From Cyanobium sp. M30B3 (GTDB lineage: Bacteria > Cyanobacteriota > Cyanobacteriia > PCC-6307 > Cyanobiaceae): 64,000 nucleotides of DNA. Each line of letters opens with the position of its first letter. Positions within the stretch are counted from its first letter, which is position 1. This document shows, in pieces, positions 21,502 to 61,853 of this stretch. Position numbers and translations under genes: made by a program. The stretch spans positions 124,001-188,000 of the forward strand of contig CP073761.1 in NCBI GenBank assembly GCA_018399015.1, given 5' to 3'. Under the pieces are notes generated by a model that ran no database searches, was not told the DNA's origin, and saw nothing but the letters and a program-made list of their open reading frames with translations.

Positions 21502-21798
21502 GGGTGGGGCCCGGGACCTGCCGGAGCTTGTTCCAGAGGGGGCGCCGGTGCAGAACCTGCCTGATGTCGTTTCCTGCGTAACCCACGCCCATGGGTGGGA
21601 GCCGGTCGGGGGGGTTCAGCTTGGCAAGCTTCTCGATTCGTTGGCCGGACCGACTGAGCTGCAATCAGTCTCAGGAGTCAGCAGGTCTGGATGTGAGAAG
21701 GTCTGTGAGAGGGTTTGGGCCTGTGACCATGGCCCTCTTTGCTCAGCAGGGAGCGGCTCACCAGGCGTAGAGTCGTGTATCTACTGCGCTGCGACCCC
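21502..21798. other. Intergenic stretch without recognised genes
   Basis: 297 bp between the MazF remnant and vapB. No reading frame with family resemblance was found on either strand. It presumably holds the vapBC promoter, but no clear -35/-10 pair or palindrome was picked out. Confidence 0.5.
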
Positions 21799-22095
21799 GT
21801 GACTTCTTCCAGGTCTCAGGCCGGATCCCCGGATGCAGGCAAGCACTTCCACCAGGCGATCCGCCGTTGGGGCAACAGTCTGGCCGTGCGGCTCCCCGCT
21901 GATTGCCTGCGTCAGGCCGGCCTGCGGGAGGGCGACCAGATCGAGATCGTGGTTGCCCCCGATGGACGGCTGCGTCTCGAACCCCTGCGCCAGCTTGATC
22001 GATCGGCTCTGGTTGATGATCTGCGCGAGCTCCAGGCCACCATGCCCCTCACTCCCTCAGTGATGGAGGAATGCCGCTCCAGCGAACGCTGGTGA
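21799..22095 (+). CDS. vapB: VapB-type antitoxin (SpoVT/AbrB-like fold)
   Basis: A 98-residue antitoxin: the core AIRRWGNSLAVRLPADCLRQAGLREGDQIEI is the swapped-hairpin MazE/SpoVT-AbrB DNA-binding fold, and the C-terminal part (LVDDLRELQATMPLTP) is the toxin-neutralising tail. It should bind its own promoter and mask the PIN toxin downstream. The GTG at 21799 is the probable start; the frame is open 60 bp further upstream, so the N-terminus is uncertain. It is 13 bp ahead of vapC. Confidence 0.8.
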   Translation: MTSSRSQAGSPDAGKHFHQAIRRWGNSLAVRLPADCLRQAGLREGDQIEIVVAPDGRLRLEPLRQLDRSALVDDLRELQATMPLTPSVMEECRSSERW

Positions 22096-22108: not shown

Positions 22109-22594
22109 ATGATCTACCTCGATACAAGCGTGGTGGTGGCGCTGCTGACCCCGGAGGAGCGCAGCGCATCCGCCCTCGACTGGTTTGAGCAGTGCCGCGA
22201 ACCCCTGACCAGCAGCGACTGGTTGATCACCGAGACCCACAGCGCCCTAGGCATCAAGCAGCGCCATCACGGTCTCAGCCCCCAGGCCCGCCAGGCCGCC
22301 GGGGAGCAGTTCGAGCGCCTGCTGCAGAGTGGTGTGGAACTGCGCTCGCTCGAACGCGATCGCTTCCGTCAGGCAGCCGAGCTGCTTGAGGATCCAGCCC
22401 TCGGCCTCCGTGCCGGTGATGCGCTGCATCTGGCGGTGGCGCTGTACAGCCACTGCACCCAGCTGGCCAGCTTCGATGGCCGGATGCTGCAAGCCGCAGC
22501 CTCCCTGGGGATGAGGCCAGCACTGGAGTCATCCACCAACCATTCAAGGCAAGGTCTCCAGAGGGAAGCTGAACTTAGGGGGCATCAAGGCTGA
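22109..22594 (+). CDS. vapC: VapC-type PIN-domain ribonuclease toxin
   Basis: A 161-residue PIN protein. All four expected acidic positions are present: Asp5 in IYLDTS, Glu in LITETHS (about residue 43), Asp in LRAGDALHLAVA (about 104) and Asp in LASFDGRM (about 122), so the nuclease looks intact. VapC toxins cut tRNA or rRNA when VapB is degraded. The last 25 residues (after LGMRPALESS) extend beyond the usual family length and overlap the convergent antitoxin fragment by 20 bp. Confidence 0.88.
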   Translation: MIYLDTSVVVALLTPEERSASALDWFEQCREPLTSSDWLITETHSALGIKQRHHGLSPQARQAAGEQFERLLQSGVELRSLERDRFRQAAELLEDPALGLRAGDALHLAVALYSHCTQLASFDGRMLQAAASLGMRPALESSTNHSRQGLQREAELRGHQG

Positions 22595-58953: not shown

Positions 58954-59988
58954 TTATCCGCCGCCAGGGGCCGTGAGCAGGAAGCCGTCACGGAAGGCAT
59001 CGCCGGGGTCCTGGCCGCGTTTGAGGGCGGCCTCCACCTCGAGCAGCTGGCCCAGCAGGCGCAGGAACAGGGCGGGCCGTTTGCCGCGGATCTGCTTGCG
59101 CATCACGTAGATGCGCTTGGGGTTGCCGATGCCGGCGGCCTTGGCGATCACGGCCACGTCGCTTTCGCCGTTCTGGTCGAGCAGGGCCACCCACAGCCAG
59201 CCGCGGATCTGGCTGGTGAGCGACGCCACAACGCGCAGAGCCGGCTCGTTGGCGGCCAGCAGGGCGTCCACCCGGGCGATGGCGTCGGCGGGTTTGCCGG
59301 CCAGCAGGGCGTCGCCCACCGCCAGGGCGCTGGTGCTCTGGCCGCCCACCAGGGCCTGCACGGCGGCCAGGCTGATCGGGCCGCCCCTTCCCTGGGCGCT
59401 GTCGTTCCGTTGCTGGCCTGCCGGAGCCGCTGCGGCGTAAAGGCTCAGCTTCTCCAGTTCACTGGCCAGCCGGGCGCTGTCGCTGCCGATCGCCTCGGCC
59501 AGGGCCTCGGCGGCGGCGGGCTCCAGCTGCAGATCCAGCTCGCGGGCGGTGCGCGCCACCAGCTCCACCTGGCCTGCCCCATCCCAGATCGCCGGCAGGG
59601 CGAAGCTCTGTTCGCTGGCCAGGCCGGCCTTGATCAGTTTCTGCAGGGTCTTGGTGGTGCGCAGCCGCGCATCGGGCTTGCCGGCGCTGACCAGCAACAG
59701 GTGGCAGCCGTCGGCCACCTGGGTCAGGGATGCCTCGAAGCCCTCGGCCAGGTCGGCTGGGCACTGGCTGCAGAAGGGGCTGCGCTGCAGCACCACCACC
59801 CGGCCGCCACTGCCGAAGGGCGGGGTGCGGGCCTCCTCCAGGGCCTGGGCCGCCTGACTGGCGTCGTGGCCATCGAGACGACTGAGGTTGAGGCTGGCCC
59901 AGGCGGGATCCAGCTGGGCCTGCACCAGTGCTTCGACGGCGCGGTTGCGGGCCGCCTCGTCGTCGCCCCAGAGCAGGTGGATCGGCAT
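58954..59988 (-). CDS. holA: DNA polymerase III subunit delta
   Basis: HolA opens the sliding clamp within the clamp loader. The 344 residues start MPIHLLWGDDEAARNRAVEALV and include LNLSRLDGHDASQAAQALEEARTPPF and GGRVVVL, then the central LASELEKLSLYA and the C-terminal ALRVVASLTSQIRGWL and RKQIRGKRPALFLRLLGQLLEVEAALKRG typical of bacterial delta subunits. ATG 59988 is selected; in-frame upstream codons have no family resemblance. It lies 38 bp before lysC on the same strand. Confidence 0.9.
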   Translation of the reverse strand: MPIHLLWGDDEAARNRAVEALVQAQLDPAWASLNLSRLDGHDASQAAQALEEARTPPFGSGGRVVVLQRSPFCSQCPADLAEGFEASLTQVADGCHLLLVSAGKPDARLRTTKTLQKLIKAGLASEQSFALPAIWDGAGQVELVARTARELDLQLEPAAAEALAEAIGSDSARLASELEKLSLYAAAAPAGQQRNDSAQGRGGPISLAAVQALVGGQSTSALAVGDALLAGKPADAIARVDALLAANEPALRVVASLTSQIRGWLWVALLDQNGESDVAVIAKAAGIGNPKRIYVMRKQIRGKRPALFLRLLGQLLEVEAALKRGQDPGDAFRDGFLLTAPGGG

Positions 59989-60040: not shown

Positions 60041-60814
60041 TCAGATCCGCAGAGCGCTGAGCACGGGGTGCAGACCAGTCTGGGCCAGGGCTGGATGGTT
60101 GGTGACCAGGATCGCCGCATCCGCCTGGATGGCGGTGGCCAGTTCAATGGCGGCGCTGTCGTCGAGCTGGGGCTCCTGGCGGCGCAGACGCACGGCCGCC
60201 GCCGCGATCACGCCATTGGCGGGAATCAGCTGCCAGATCTGCGGGTTCTCGAAGGCTTTGGCGTAGCGCTGAGCCAGGGCTTCATCGCCCTGGGCCAGGG
60301 GCCCTTCCAGCACCCGGATCAGGCTCAGGCAGCTCACGACCCCGATCCAGTGGCCCGACGCAATTCCCTGCAGCAGGGGCTCGAGGTGCTTGCCGGTGCC
60401 CTTGGCGTCCGCCAGAAAGGCCACCAGCGCCGTGCCATCGAGGGCGATCCGGGAGCCCTGGGCCAGCCCGTGGGGAAGGAAGCCGGACTGCTGGGGCAGC
60501 TGTTGCACCGGCTGCACGAAGGCCGGTGCCGCCGGTGCCGGCCGGGCCGGATGGCGTTGGTTGGCGTCCCAGCAGCTGCGACCGCTGCCCCGCAGGGCCA
60601 TCAGGCTCTGCACCTGCCGCTGCCGGAGACGGGGATCGGTGGGTGCCTGCCCGGCCAGAGGCACCAGGGCGGCCATGGGGGTGCGGTGTCGCTGGATCAC
60701 GAAGCGTTCACCAGCCGCAGCCCGCTCCAGCAGTTCCGGCAGTCGTCGCCGGGCCGCCTCCACGCCCAAGGGGGTGTCAGGGGTGGGGGCCGAGCCGCGG
60801 TGGGGGGTGTTCAC
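60041..60814 (-). CDS. Fused Phd/YefM-type antitoxin and PIN-domain protein
   Basis: A 257-residue protein from the GTG at 60814. Residues 10-55 (GVEAARRRLPELLERAAAGE then RFVIQRHRTPMAALVPLAG) have the Phd/YefM fold pattern. After an Ala/Pro linker, about residues 125-257 form a PIN domain (SRIALDGTALVAFLADAKG, LDDSAAIELATAIQADAAILVTNHPAL). Aligned by eye with VapC, the first Asp (ALDGT) and third acid (LDDSAA) are kept, but the usual Glu in the LxxxE helix reads Arg (LSLIRVLEGP) and the final Asp of TND reads His (TNH). Antitoxin and toxin in one chain is unusual. The four TGTAC boxes upstream argue for the GTG start and for autoregulation. Confidence 0.78.
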   Translation of the reverse strand: MNTPHRGSAPTPDTPLGVEAARRRLPELLERAAAGERFVIQRHRTPMAALVPLAGQAPTDPRLRQRQVQSLMALRGSGRSCWDANQRHPARPAPAAPAFVQPVQQLPQQSGFLPHGLAQGSRIALDGTALVAFLADAKGTGKHLEPLLQGIASGHWIGVVSCLSLIRVLEGPLAQGDEALAQRYAKAFENPQIWQLIPANGVIAAAAVRLRRQEPQLDDSAAIELATAIQADAAILVTNHPALAQTGLHPVLSALRI

Positions 60815-60829
60815 CCGCCTCCTTGATTC

Positions 60830-60861
60830 TGTACAGACTGTACGACTTGTACAATATGTAC
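60830..60861 (-). promoter_or_regulatory. Operator of four TGTAC motifs at 9-bp spacing
   Basis: TGTAC begins at 60830, 60839, 60848 and 60857, exactly 9 bp apart, 16-47 bp upstream of the Phd-PIN start. GTAC is palindromic, so both strands show it. YefM/Phd antitoxins are known to bind TGTACA-type palindromes in their own promoters, so this array is most simply the gene's autoregulatory operator; that is inference. Confidence 0.75.
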
Positions 60862-60879
60862 GGAATTCGGAACGCTGTC

Positions 60880-60911
60880 GCTCCGGCTCCAGCTCCAGCT
60901 CCAGCTCCGGC
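60880..60911. repeat. Hexanucleotide repeat GCTCC(A/G), five copies
   Basis: GCTCCG, three times GCTCCA and GCTCCG follow in tandem, just upstream of the TGTAC operator on the minus-strand view. Probably slippage DNA. If translated from an upstream start it would give alternating Glu-Leu. Confidence 0.9.
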
Positions 60912-60970
60912 GTTTCCTTGGCTTGCCTGGACTTGAGCCTGGTTGCCGGTTGGCAGTTGGCCATTTCCTC

Positions 60971-61053
60971 CTGGCTGCTGGCTGCTGGCTGCTGGCTGCT
61001 GGCTGCTGGCTGCTGGCTGCTGGCTGCTGGCTGCTGGCTGCTGGCTGCTGGCT
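60971..61053. repeat. Heptanucleotide microsatellite (CTGGCTG), about 12 copies
   Basis: The 7-bp unit CTGGCTG is repeated perfectly for 83 bp, 96 bp upstream of cobH and 157 bp upstream of the divergent Phd-PIN gene. Since 7 is not a multiple of 3, all frames through it read the same LLAAGCW peptide, which explains misleading open frames here. Copy number should be unstable through replication slippage. Confidence 0.95.
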
Positions 61054-61148
61054 ACGTCCTGGTTGCGGACTGCGGATCAGTTCGGCCCAGCTTGCCGGGG
61101 GGTGCCGGCAGGCGTGCGCCAGGGTGGGCGGGTGGCTGAGGATGTTCC

Positions 61149-61853
61149 ATGGCGGTTGCCGGCGCTGACTTTGATCACCCGATCTTTTGCGAGAGCCTGC
61201 GGATCATCCGGGCGATGCCGGGCATCGAGGCAGCCCTGGGGCCGCTCACAGCGCTGCAGCAGGACGTGGTGCTGCGCCTGATCCACAGCAGCGGCGACCC
61301 TGAACTGGCCGGCGCGGTGCGCTTCTCGCCGGGGGCCTGCGAGGCCGGCCTGGCGGCCCTGGCGGCAGGGGCGCCGATTCTCACCGATACGGTGATGGCG
61401 GCGGCGGCCGTGGGGCCGATGGCGCGGCGCACCTTCGGCAACCGGGTGCGCAGCGTGCTGGATTGGGCTCCTGAGCAGGCCCCGGCCGGATCGACCCGCG
61501 CCGCGGCGGGTATGGCGCTGGCTCTGGCGGAGGTTGGGCAGGCCAGTGGGGAGGATGGCGCGGCGCCGGTGGTGCTGATCGGCAGCGCGCCCACGGCCCT
61601 GGAGGTGTTGCTGGAGCAGGTGGGCAGCGGCGCGGCTGGGGTTGGGGCTGCACCCGGACGGCTACCGGCCCTGGTGATCGGCATGCCGGTGGGGTTTGTG
61701 GGGGTGGCGGAGAGCAAGCGCCACCTGGCTGCGAGTGGCCTGGCCCACATCGGGCTCGCGGGCTCCAAGGGCGGAGCCGGACTGGTGGCCGCGGCCTGCA
61801 ACGCCCTGCTGCGGGCGGCCTGGCTTCAGGCGGCGAGCGCGCCGTCCTGCTGA
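61149..61853 (+). CDS. cobH: Precorrin-8X/cobalt-precorrin-8 methylmutase CobH/CbiC
   Basis: CobH moves the methyl group from C11 to C12, giving hydrogenobyrinate or cobyrinate in cobalamin synthesis. The 234 residues show [14 protein letters not shown], the catalytic His in [11 protein letters not shown] near residue 45, [32 protein letters not shown] and [14 protein letters not shown], the family signature. Together with cbiD in this window it indicates corrin synthesis. The 3' end overlaps mutS tail to tail by 28 bp. Confidence 0.94.

Follow-up and report, generated by a model that had tools for sequence, protein, structure and literature searches.

Results

A single-chain Phd/YefM-PIN gene between cobH and holA

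The window, by which we mean the whole 64,000-nucleotide stretch of Cyanobium sp. M30B3 DNA that was analyzed, contains at 60041-60814 on the minus strand a single open frame of 257 codons with a GTG start, in which a linker joins a Phd/YefM domain to a PIN domain. The gene is defined by this open frame and by its orthologues. Its parts, all on the minus strand, are a putative Phd/YefM DNA-binding domain at about residues 16-53 (60656-60769), a segment reading LRGSGRSCW at residues 74-82 (60569-60595), a variable proline-rich linker (60470-60568), and the PIN domain at about residues 117-257 (60044-60466). Alignment and gene junctions place the linker where, in related two-gene forms, the antitoxin ends, its stop codon lies, and the toxin starts. 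An AGGAGG sequence lies just 3 nt before the GTG, and other relatives begin further in; the GTG start is supported by three close relatives whose aligned codon is also a start (TTG in L014, ATG in L017, and GTG in L019).

The next gene, in the same direction and 52 bp after the fused gene, occupies 58954-59988 (minus strand); we take it to be holA, encoding the delta subunit of DNA polymerase III. holA is an essential gene. The divergent neighbor at 61149-61853 (plus strand) is presumably cobH, encoding precorrin-8X methylmutase. A perfect tandem array of the heptamer CTGGCTG (11.9 copies, 60971-61053) is found between cobH and the predicted operator described below. With the holA starts of relatives taken from alignment to the window holA, the fused gene overlapped holA in 26 of 46 fused sequences (by 1 bp in 23) and was followed by a gap of 0-52 bp in 20.

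Identity of the two halves

Residues 18-53 of the window protein matched PF02604 (Phd/YefM) with an E value of 2e-4 and 21.5 bits, below the curated cut-off of 29.8, and the protein matched TIGR01552 with an E value of 0.0045 and 16.3 bits, below the curated cut-off of 20.8. The profile search and the PF02604/PF01850 scan were run with 28 of the 46 fused sequences, the window protein included, and PF02604 was matched at E ≤ 0.01 by all 28. A profile built from these members gave an E value of 0.0011 against the N terminus of VapB46 (6jqy) and of 0.62 against Phd (4zlx). An AlphaFold2 model of the full-length protein (seven sequences) had a mean pLDDT of 40.4 and no confident fold for the N-terminal half, whose assignment as a Phd/YefM domain rests on sequence. 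The LRGSGRSCW segment that follows, present as a strict motif in 41 of 46 fused sequences and in all three two-gene antitoxins, is presumed to be the antitoxin's toxin-binding tail. In the 3.18-Mb genome (G000 contig C1) there were 14 Phd/YefM matches, nine of them over the cut-off, and the fused gene was the weakest; PIN-domain matches numbered 27, with 26 over the cut-off.

The window protein gave no PF01850 (PIN) match in the profile scan, let alone one over the curated cut-off, and 15 of the 28 scanned members matched at E ≤ 0.01. The PIN identity of the window protein itself rests on intact relatives and on structure. Its PIN half matched those of the intact two-gene relatives with E values of 1.2e-19 to 1e-24. 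The best of five PIN-only models (residues 106-257) reached a pLDDT of 78.6 and a pTM of 0.74; it was the only good one, the others ranging from pLDDT 62.0 to 39.1. A Foldseek search with this model ranked Mycobacterium tuberculosis VapC (5x3t) first (E value of 1.9e-4), and VIA-align superposed the model on 5x3t_B with a Z score of 12.4 and an rmsd of 3.4 over 127 aligned residues. The model supports a PIN fold for the C-terminal half. Profiles, intact relatives, and the PIN model thus confirm what had been read from the letters alone, a Phd-like N-terminal and a PIN C-terminal domain in one frame.

Distribution and origin of the fused gene

Among 400 genomes of the family, 55 gave matches at E ≤ 1e-5 and 345 gave none. 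We analyzed 46 fused sequences from 45 genomes, three two-gene loci (G011, G173, and G223), and three broken copies. Short or weak matches (G231, G245, G280, and G341) and second matches in G277, G249, G209, G180, and G261 were left out, duplicate loci from the same genome entered the analysis once, and the broken copies were excluded from alignments and motif counts. One genome, G306, contributed two sequences; its two fused cassettes lie on separate contigs (L018 and L045), each with its own holA, and it may be a mixed bin. The cassette occurs in Cyanobium-like picocyanobacteria, and a collection of named genomes held six fused loci, including those of Cyanobium usitatum, Cyanobium sp. T1B-Tous, Cyanobium sp. 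FACHB-13342, and Synechococcus sp. 8F6. The sequence-only reading had suggested a search for the same two-domain architecture in relatives, and these single-frame orthologues in 45 genomes are its outcome. Recurrence of the single-frame form in so many genomes at one conserved place makes the fused frame more than chance, and the same recurrence ruled out a frameshift or assembly artifact. Three of 51 cassette-bearing genomes carry broken copies (a frameshift in G004 and deletions in G017 and G188), which, together with the 345 genomes without a match, indicates that the gene is dispensable.

The fused gene was located between divergent cobH and co-directional holA in 46 of 46 cases. The two-gene forms of G011 and G223 occupy the same site, and the contig of G173 ends before cobH. 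For comparison, we hand-picked 27 genomes that had given no match. All but one (G007) yielded holA, and cobH and holA were divergent neighbors, -10 to 162 bp apart, in 26 of these 26. Since both empty and filled states occur, the cobH-holA interval looks like a single insertion site. A mobile element was considered and rejected, there being no match at an E value of 1e-3 in 72,556 plasmid and 50,697 phage records; viral contigs scanned twice with the intact PIN relatives yielded no confirmed match.

In the three two-gene relatives, adjacent antitoxin and toxin genes precede holA, all four PIN acids are intact, and all three toxins score over the PF01850 cut-off. In G011 and G173 the stop codon of the antitoxin gene overlaps the start codon of the toxin gene in a TGATG, and the toxin stop overlaps the holA start likewise; G223 has gaps of a few bases at these junctions instead. 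As an outgroup we used 21 free-standing PIN toxins from other families of the same class (30 loci, among the matches listed, minus nine that are the cassette itself), all of which keep the four acids. In a PIN tree rooted on these toxins, the 46 fused sequences formed one clade with support of 100/99, or 100/97 after removal of seven acid-site columns. The two-gene sequences branched at the base of this clade in an order that is weakly resolved; for its number of sequences the tree rests on few columns, and some branches are long. Since the fused sequences form one clade, the simplest account is that an intact pair fused once. The possibility had been raised earlier that the frame is a frameshifted version of two separate genes with intact acids. 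Such separate genes do exist; there is no frameshift, and the fusion is old and conserved.

Loss and gain of acids in the PIN half

In alignment with the two-gene relatives, three of the four canonical PIN acids are gone from the window protein (E167R, D221A, and D240H) and D126 alone stays (all codons given here are on the minus strand). D126 (60437-60439) is the first acid, with Asp in 43 and Glu in three of the 46 fused sequences. The place of the second, a Glu in 3/3 two-gene and 21/21 outgroup toxins and in 3/46 fused sequences, is taken by R167 (60314-60316). A221 (60152-60154) stands at the third, where Asp is found in 24 of 24 other sequences and in none of the fused ones, and H240 (60095-60097) stands at the fourth, where fused sequences have Asp in 23 cases and His in 17. 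The Asp pair of LDDSAA just upstream does not correspond to the third acid in this alignment. Two replaced acids had been counted by eye, Glu to Arg and the last Asp to His; both substitutions stand, and the count rises to three with A221. As to whether the substitutions are conserved, loss of the third acid is universal in the fused clade and loss of the Glu nearly so, and the fourth Asp is still present in half of the sequences.

Two other positions of the PIN half carry new acids in the fused clade. E170 (60305-60307), three residues past the lost Glu, is acidic in 39/46 fused sequences and in 0/24 others, the two-gene toxins having Thr there. E224 (60143-60145), three residues past the lost third Asp, is acidic in 46/46 fused sequences and in 0/24 others (Gln or His; Gln in the two-gene toxins), while the old third-acid column takes 11 different residues in the fused clade. 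We defined acid gain as an acid in 80% or more of fused sequences and in no more than 10% of the 24 others, thresholds that were set after the pattern had been seen. Two columns out of the 134 that were well filled in the PIN half qualified, and each lies exactly three residues past a lost acid. The E178 column, which is not near any lost acid in the sequence, narrowly misses this definition (96% versus 12%). Both E170 and E224 fall in predicted helices of the PIN-only model, so that a shift of +3 would amount to about one turn. The simplest reading of the alignment is that the pocket would have been rebuilt once, at the base of the fused clade, and then kept. The gained acids might bind metal, pair with a basic residue of the protein's own antitoxin tail, or stabilize the fold.

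Conservation of E170 and E224, each three residues past a lost acid, leaves room for a shifted, working metal site. The PIN half could then still bind metal and cleave RNA, using acids displaced by one helical turn (E167 to E170, D221 to E224, and D240 to D239), and we consider this unlikely. The coincidence of both acid gains with the +3 places speaks for it, as does the constancy of position 224 beside a freely varying old column. L067 and L078, moreover, keep the old Glu with Gln at +3, as though either position could serve, and many relatives have Asp at 239. Against it, the thresholds were chosen afterwards and E178 comes close to them with no lost acid nearby, the window protein has N239 and H240 and so no acid at either fourth place, E170 is non-acidic in 7/46 sequences, and R167 would bring a positive charge into the pocket. 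A protein of this kind might be held in check in cis by its fused Phd tail, as in EzeT, and retention of the tail motif in 41/46 sequences would agree with that; we regard this part, too, as unlikely. It seems to us rather improbable that, through a metal site rebuilt one turn away on two separate helices, the protein acts as a nuclease, self-inhibited or re-targeted, while also repressing an operon containing holA.

A predicted operator upstream

Four TGTAC cores 9 bp apart lie upstream of the fused gene at 60830-60861 (unstranded), with an exact palindrome, GTACAGACTGTAC, at 60831-60843. We scanned 150 bp before the Phd core at 49 cassette loci (the 46 fused and the three two-gene ones). The palindrome GTACAGNCTGTAC was present with at most two mismatches at 44 of 49 loci versus 0.21 expected from Markov resampling, and TGTAC/GTACA half-sites numbered 180 versus 8.1 expected. 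The palindrome was absent at five loci, three of which had no half-site (G129, G195, and G055) and two of which had two or three (G306b and G329). By eye, an array of another heptamer, CAGCAAC, precedes the fused gene of G055 (L074). In the 250 bp before holA of cassette-free loci, the palindrome was found in 0 of 26, and half-sites numbered two in total across these loci. YefM operators are described, in the parts of PMC7730913 and PMC4803016 available to us, as palindromes whose TGTACA cores are spaced 12 bp apart and on which YoeB acts as co-repressor; the spacing at the fused gene is 9 bp. The inverted repeats are predicted to be a YefM-type operator. A simple scan of 60700-61160 found no sigma-70-like promoter, and no terminator was found nearby.

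Elsewhere in the genome, the exact operator occurs at one site, 902152 (L080:1501-1513), about 80 bp after an ORF that appears RES-like by eye; sites with at most one mismatch to the palindrome numbered six, its own included, versus two for a reversed control pattern. An intact PIN gene of 161 amino acids is also present in the window (22109-22594, plus strand), preceded by an ORF at 21739-22095 whose product by eye resembles an AbrB-type antitoxin. The idea that the fused protein senses other PIN/VapC systems, such as this vapBC pair, found no support: the ORF before the intact PIN gene looks AbrB-like rather than Phd-like, and the exact operator recurs at just one other place.

Allele exchange and selection at the cobH-holA site

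In a holA tree, G012, which carries a fused gene, is sister to G011, which carries the two-gene form (SH-aLRT 96, short search). On the holA-lysC side, their loci (L062 and L072) share 97% DNA identity over 2,399 bases, starting about 40 bases before the holA start, and their cobH genes are 90% identical over 345 bases. Within the cassette a single 167-base stretch aligned, at 69%. Because the flanks match and the cassettes differ, at least one exchange between an intact and a fused allele has taken place at this site among near relatives. Such an exchange would agree with an anti-addiction or guard allele, one that replaces, represses, or neutralizes the intact phd-vapC allele circulating at the same site. 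The two kinds of allele share a palindrome class, and the tail motif is strict in G011 and has Thr for Ser in G012. We nevertheless think this explanation rather unlikely, as one clear recent swap alone was seen, few genomes have two-gene alleles at the cobH-holA site (3 of the 400 searched), and the fused protein's own PIN half may occupy its tail.

Over 331 close pairs, the median dN/dS was 0.46 for the fused gene and 0.30 for holA, and dN was below dS in both halves of the fused gene among the 40 closest pairs. The fused gene is under purifying selection; dN/dS and the motif counts are not independent, because close relatives dominate both. That the gene is a decaying remnant without present function is improbable: the broken copies, a dN/dS above that of holA, and the many genomes without a match would suit a remnant, and frames that are open in 45 genomes, a dN lower than dS in each half, the invariable acid at position 224, and the operator retained at 44 of 49 loci weigh against one.

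Discussion

We favor, at a probability of about 0.55, the explanation that the fused gene is a domesticated phd-vapC module encoding an autorepressor that is non-toxic, permanently assembled, and in one operon with holA. The module would have begun at the cobH-holA site as two intact genes that fused once into a single chain, whose PIN half was left without its canonical catalytic acids. What remained would be an antitoxin-toxin complex permanently assembled in one chain, in which the Phd half would bind the TGTACA-core palindrome in front of the gene and the PIN half would serve as a built-in co-repressor and dimer platform. The chain would thereby repress its own operon, which now includes holA. 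We infer DNA binding, repression, lack of toxicity, and an effect on holA; the last would follow from repression of the promoter by the Phd half, unless holA has a promoter of its own. Since the usual cutting site is lost, the DNA switch is kept, and a replication gene lies directly downstream, the gene is now probably a regulator rather than a poison. The earlier suggestion of a tamed toxin, acting as co-repressor to the antitoxin domain in its own chain, appears to fit best with the lost acids, the kept operator, and purifying selection. Conservation of E170 and E224 would seem to exceed the need of a purely structural PIN half and counts against the autorepressor, as do the five loci without the palindrome, the broken copies, the failure to find a promoter, and a dN/dS above that of holA.

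The PIN domain of SMG5 is degenerate. A composite SMG5-SMG6 PIN domain has been reported (in the accessible part of PMC12923823), which suggests that a degenerate PIN domain need not be idle.

The closest known system is bicistronic phd/yefM-vapC, which has the same two domains in the same order and the same TGTACA-core operator as the fused gene and which occurs at the same chromosomal site in G011 and G223 and on the holA side in G173. It consists of two adjacent genes, whereas the fused gene encodes one chain in which three of four PIN acids are replaced in the window and the third is lost throughout the fused clade. Fused toxin-antitoxin (TA) proteins are known as a kind, and a described Phd-PIN fusion was not found in the literature searched. 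The Phd-RelE fusion yb_293189 of Ralstonia eutropha likewise joins Phd to a toxin thought inactive, but its toxin is RelE and not PIN, its inactivation is ascribed to truncation, and the available portion of the source leaves undecided whether it is a dead end or functional (PMC4826407). The fused Phd-PIN gene differs from yb_293189 in forming a conserved orthologous family. YefM-YoeB fusions also place an N-terminal Phd/YefM domain with predicted operator binding in a single-chain TA protein, but their toxin has a BECR fold and not a PIN fold; five prokaryotic and two eukaryotic cases are given in the excerpted text of PMC11980606. EzeT of E. coli has an antitoxin N terminus and a toxin C terminus on one chain, the toxin being a Zeta kinase that, according to the sections available of PMC4826407 and PMC4803016, is active once the N-terminal antitoxin part is removed. 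Slr1999 of Synechocystis, a HicA-HicB fusion, is a fused TA protein in a cyanobacterium; it belongs to other families and is reported, in the accessible passages of PMC4963859, without fused homologues elsewhere.

The sequence-only reading pointed to no described family with the Phd-PIN layout. Among the matches listed in the PMC literature, outside of which most subscription papers lie, we found no natural Phd-PIN or VapB-VapC fusion. The one mention of "phd-pin," in PMC2701414, belongs to a text that, in the part available, describes separate gene pairs and other fusions. The main text of PMC5498466, on TA pairs of Synechococcus CB0101, contains neither "fused" nor "PIN."

Domestication of TA modules is often claimed, and its steps are rarely seen. 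At the cobH-holA site, the empty, intact two-gene, fused and defused, and broken fused states stand side by side, with near-sister genomes carrying different alleles. This makes testable both a possible conversion of a TA module into an autorepressor controlling a downstream replication gene, holA, and a possible relocation of a PIN active site.
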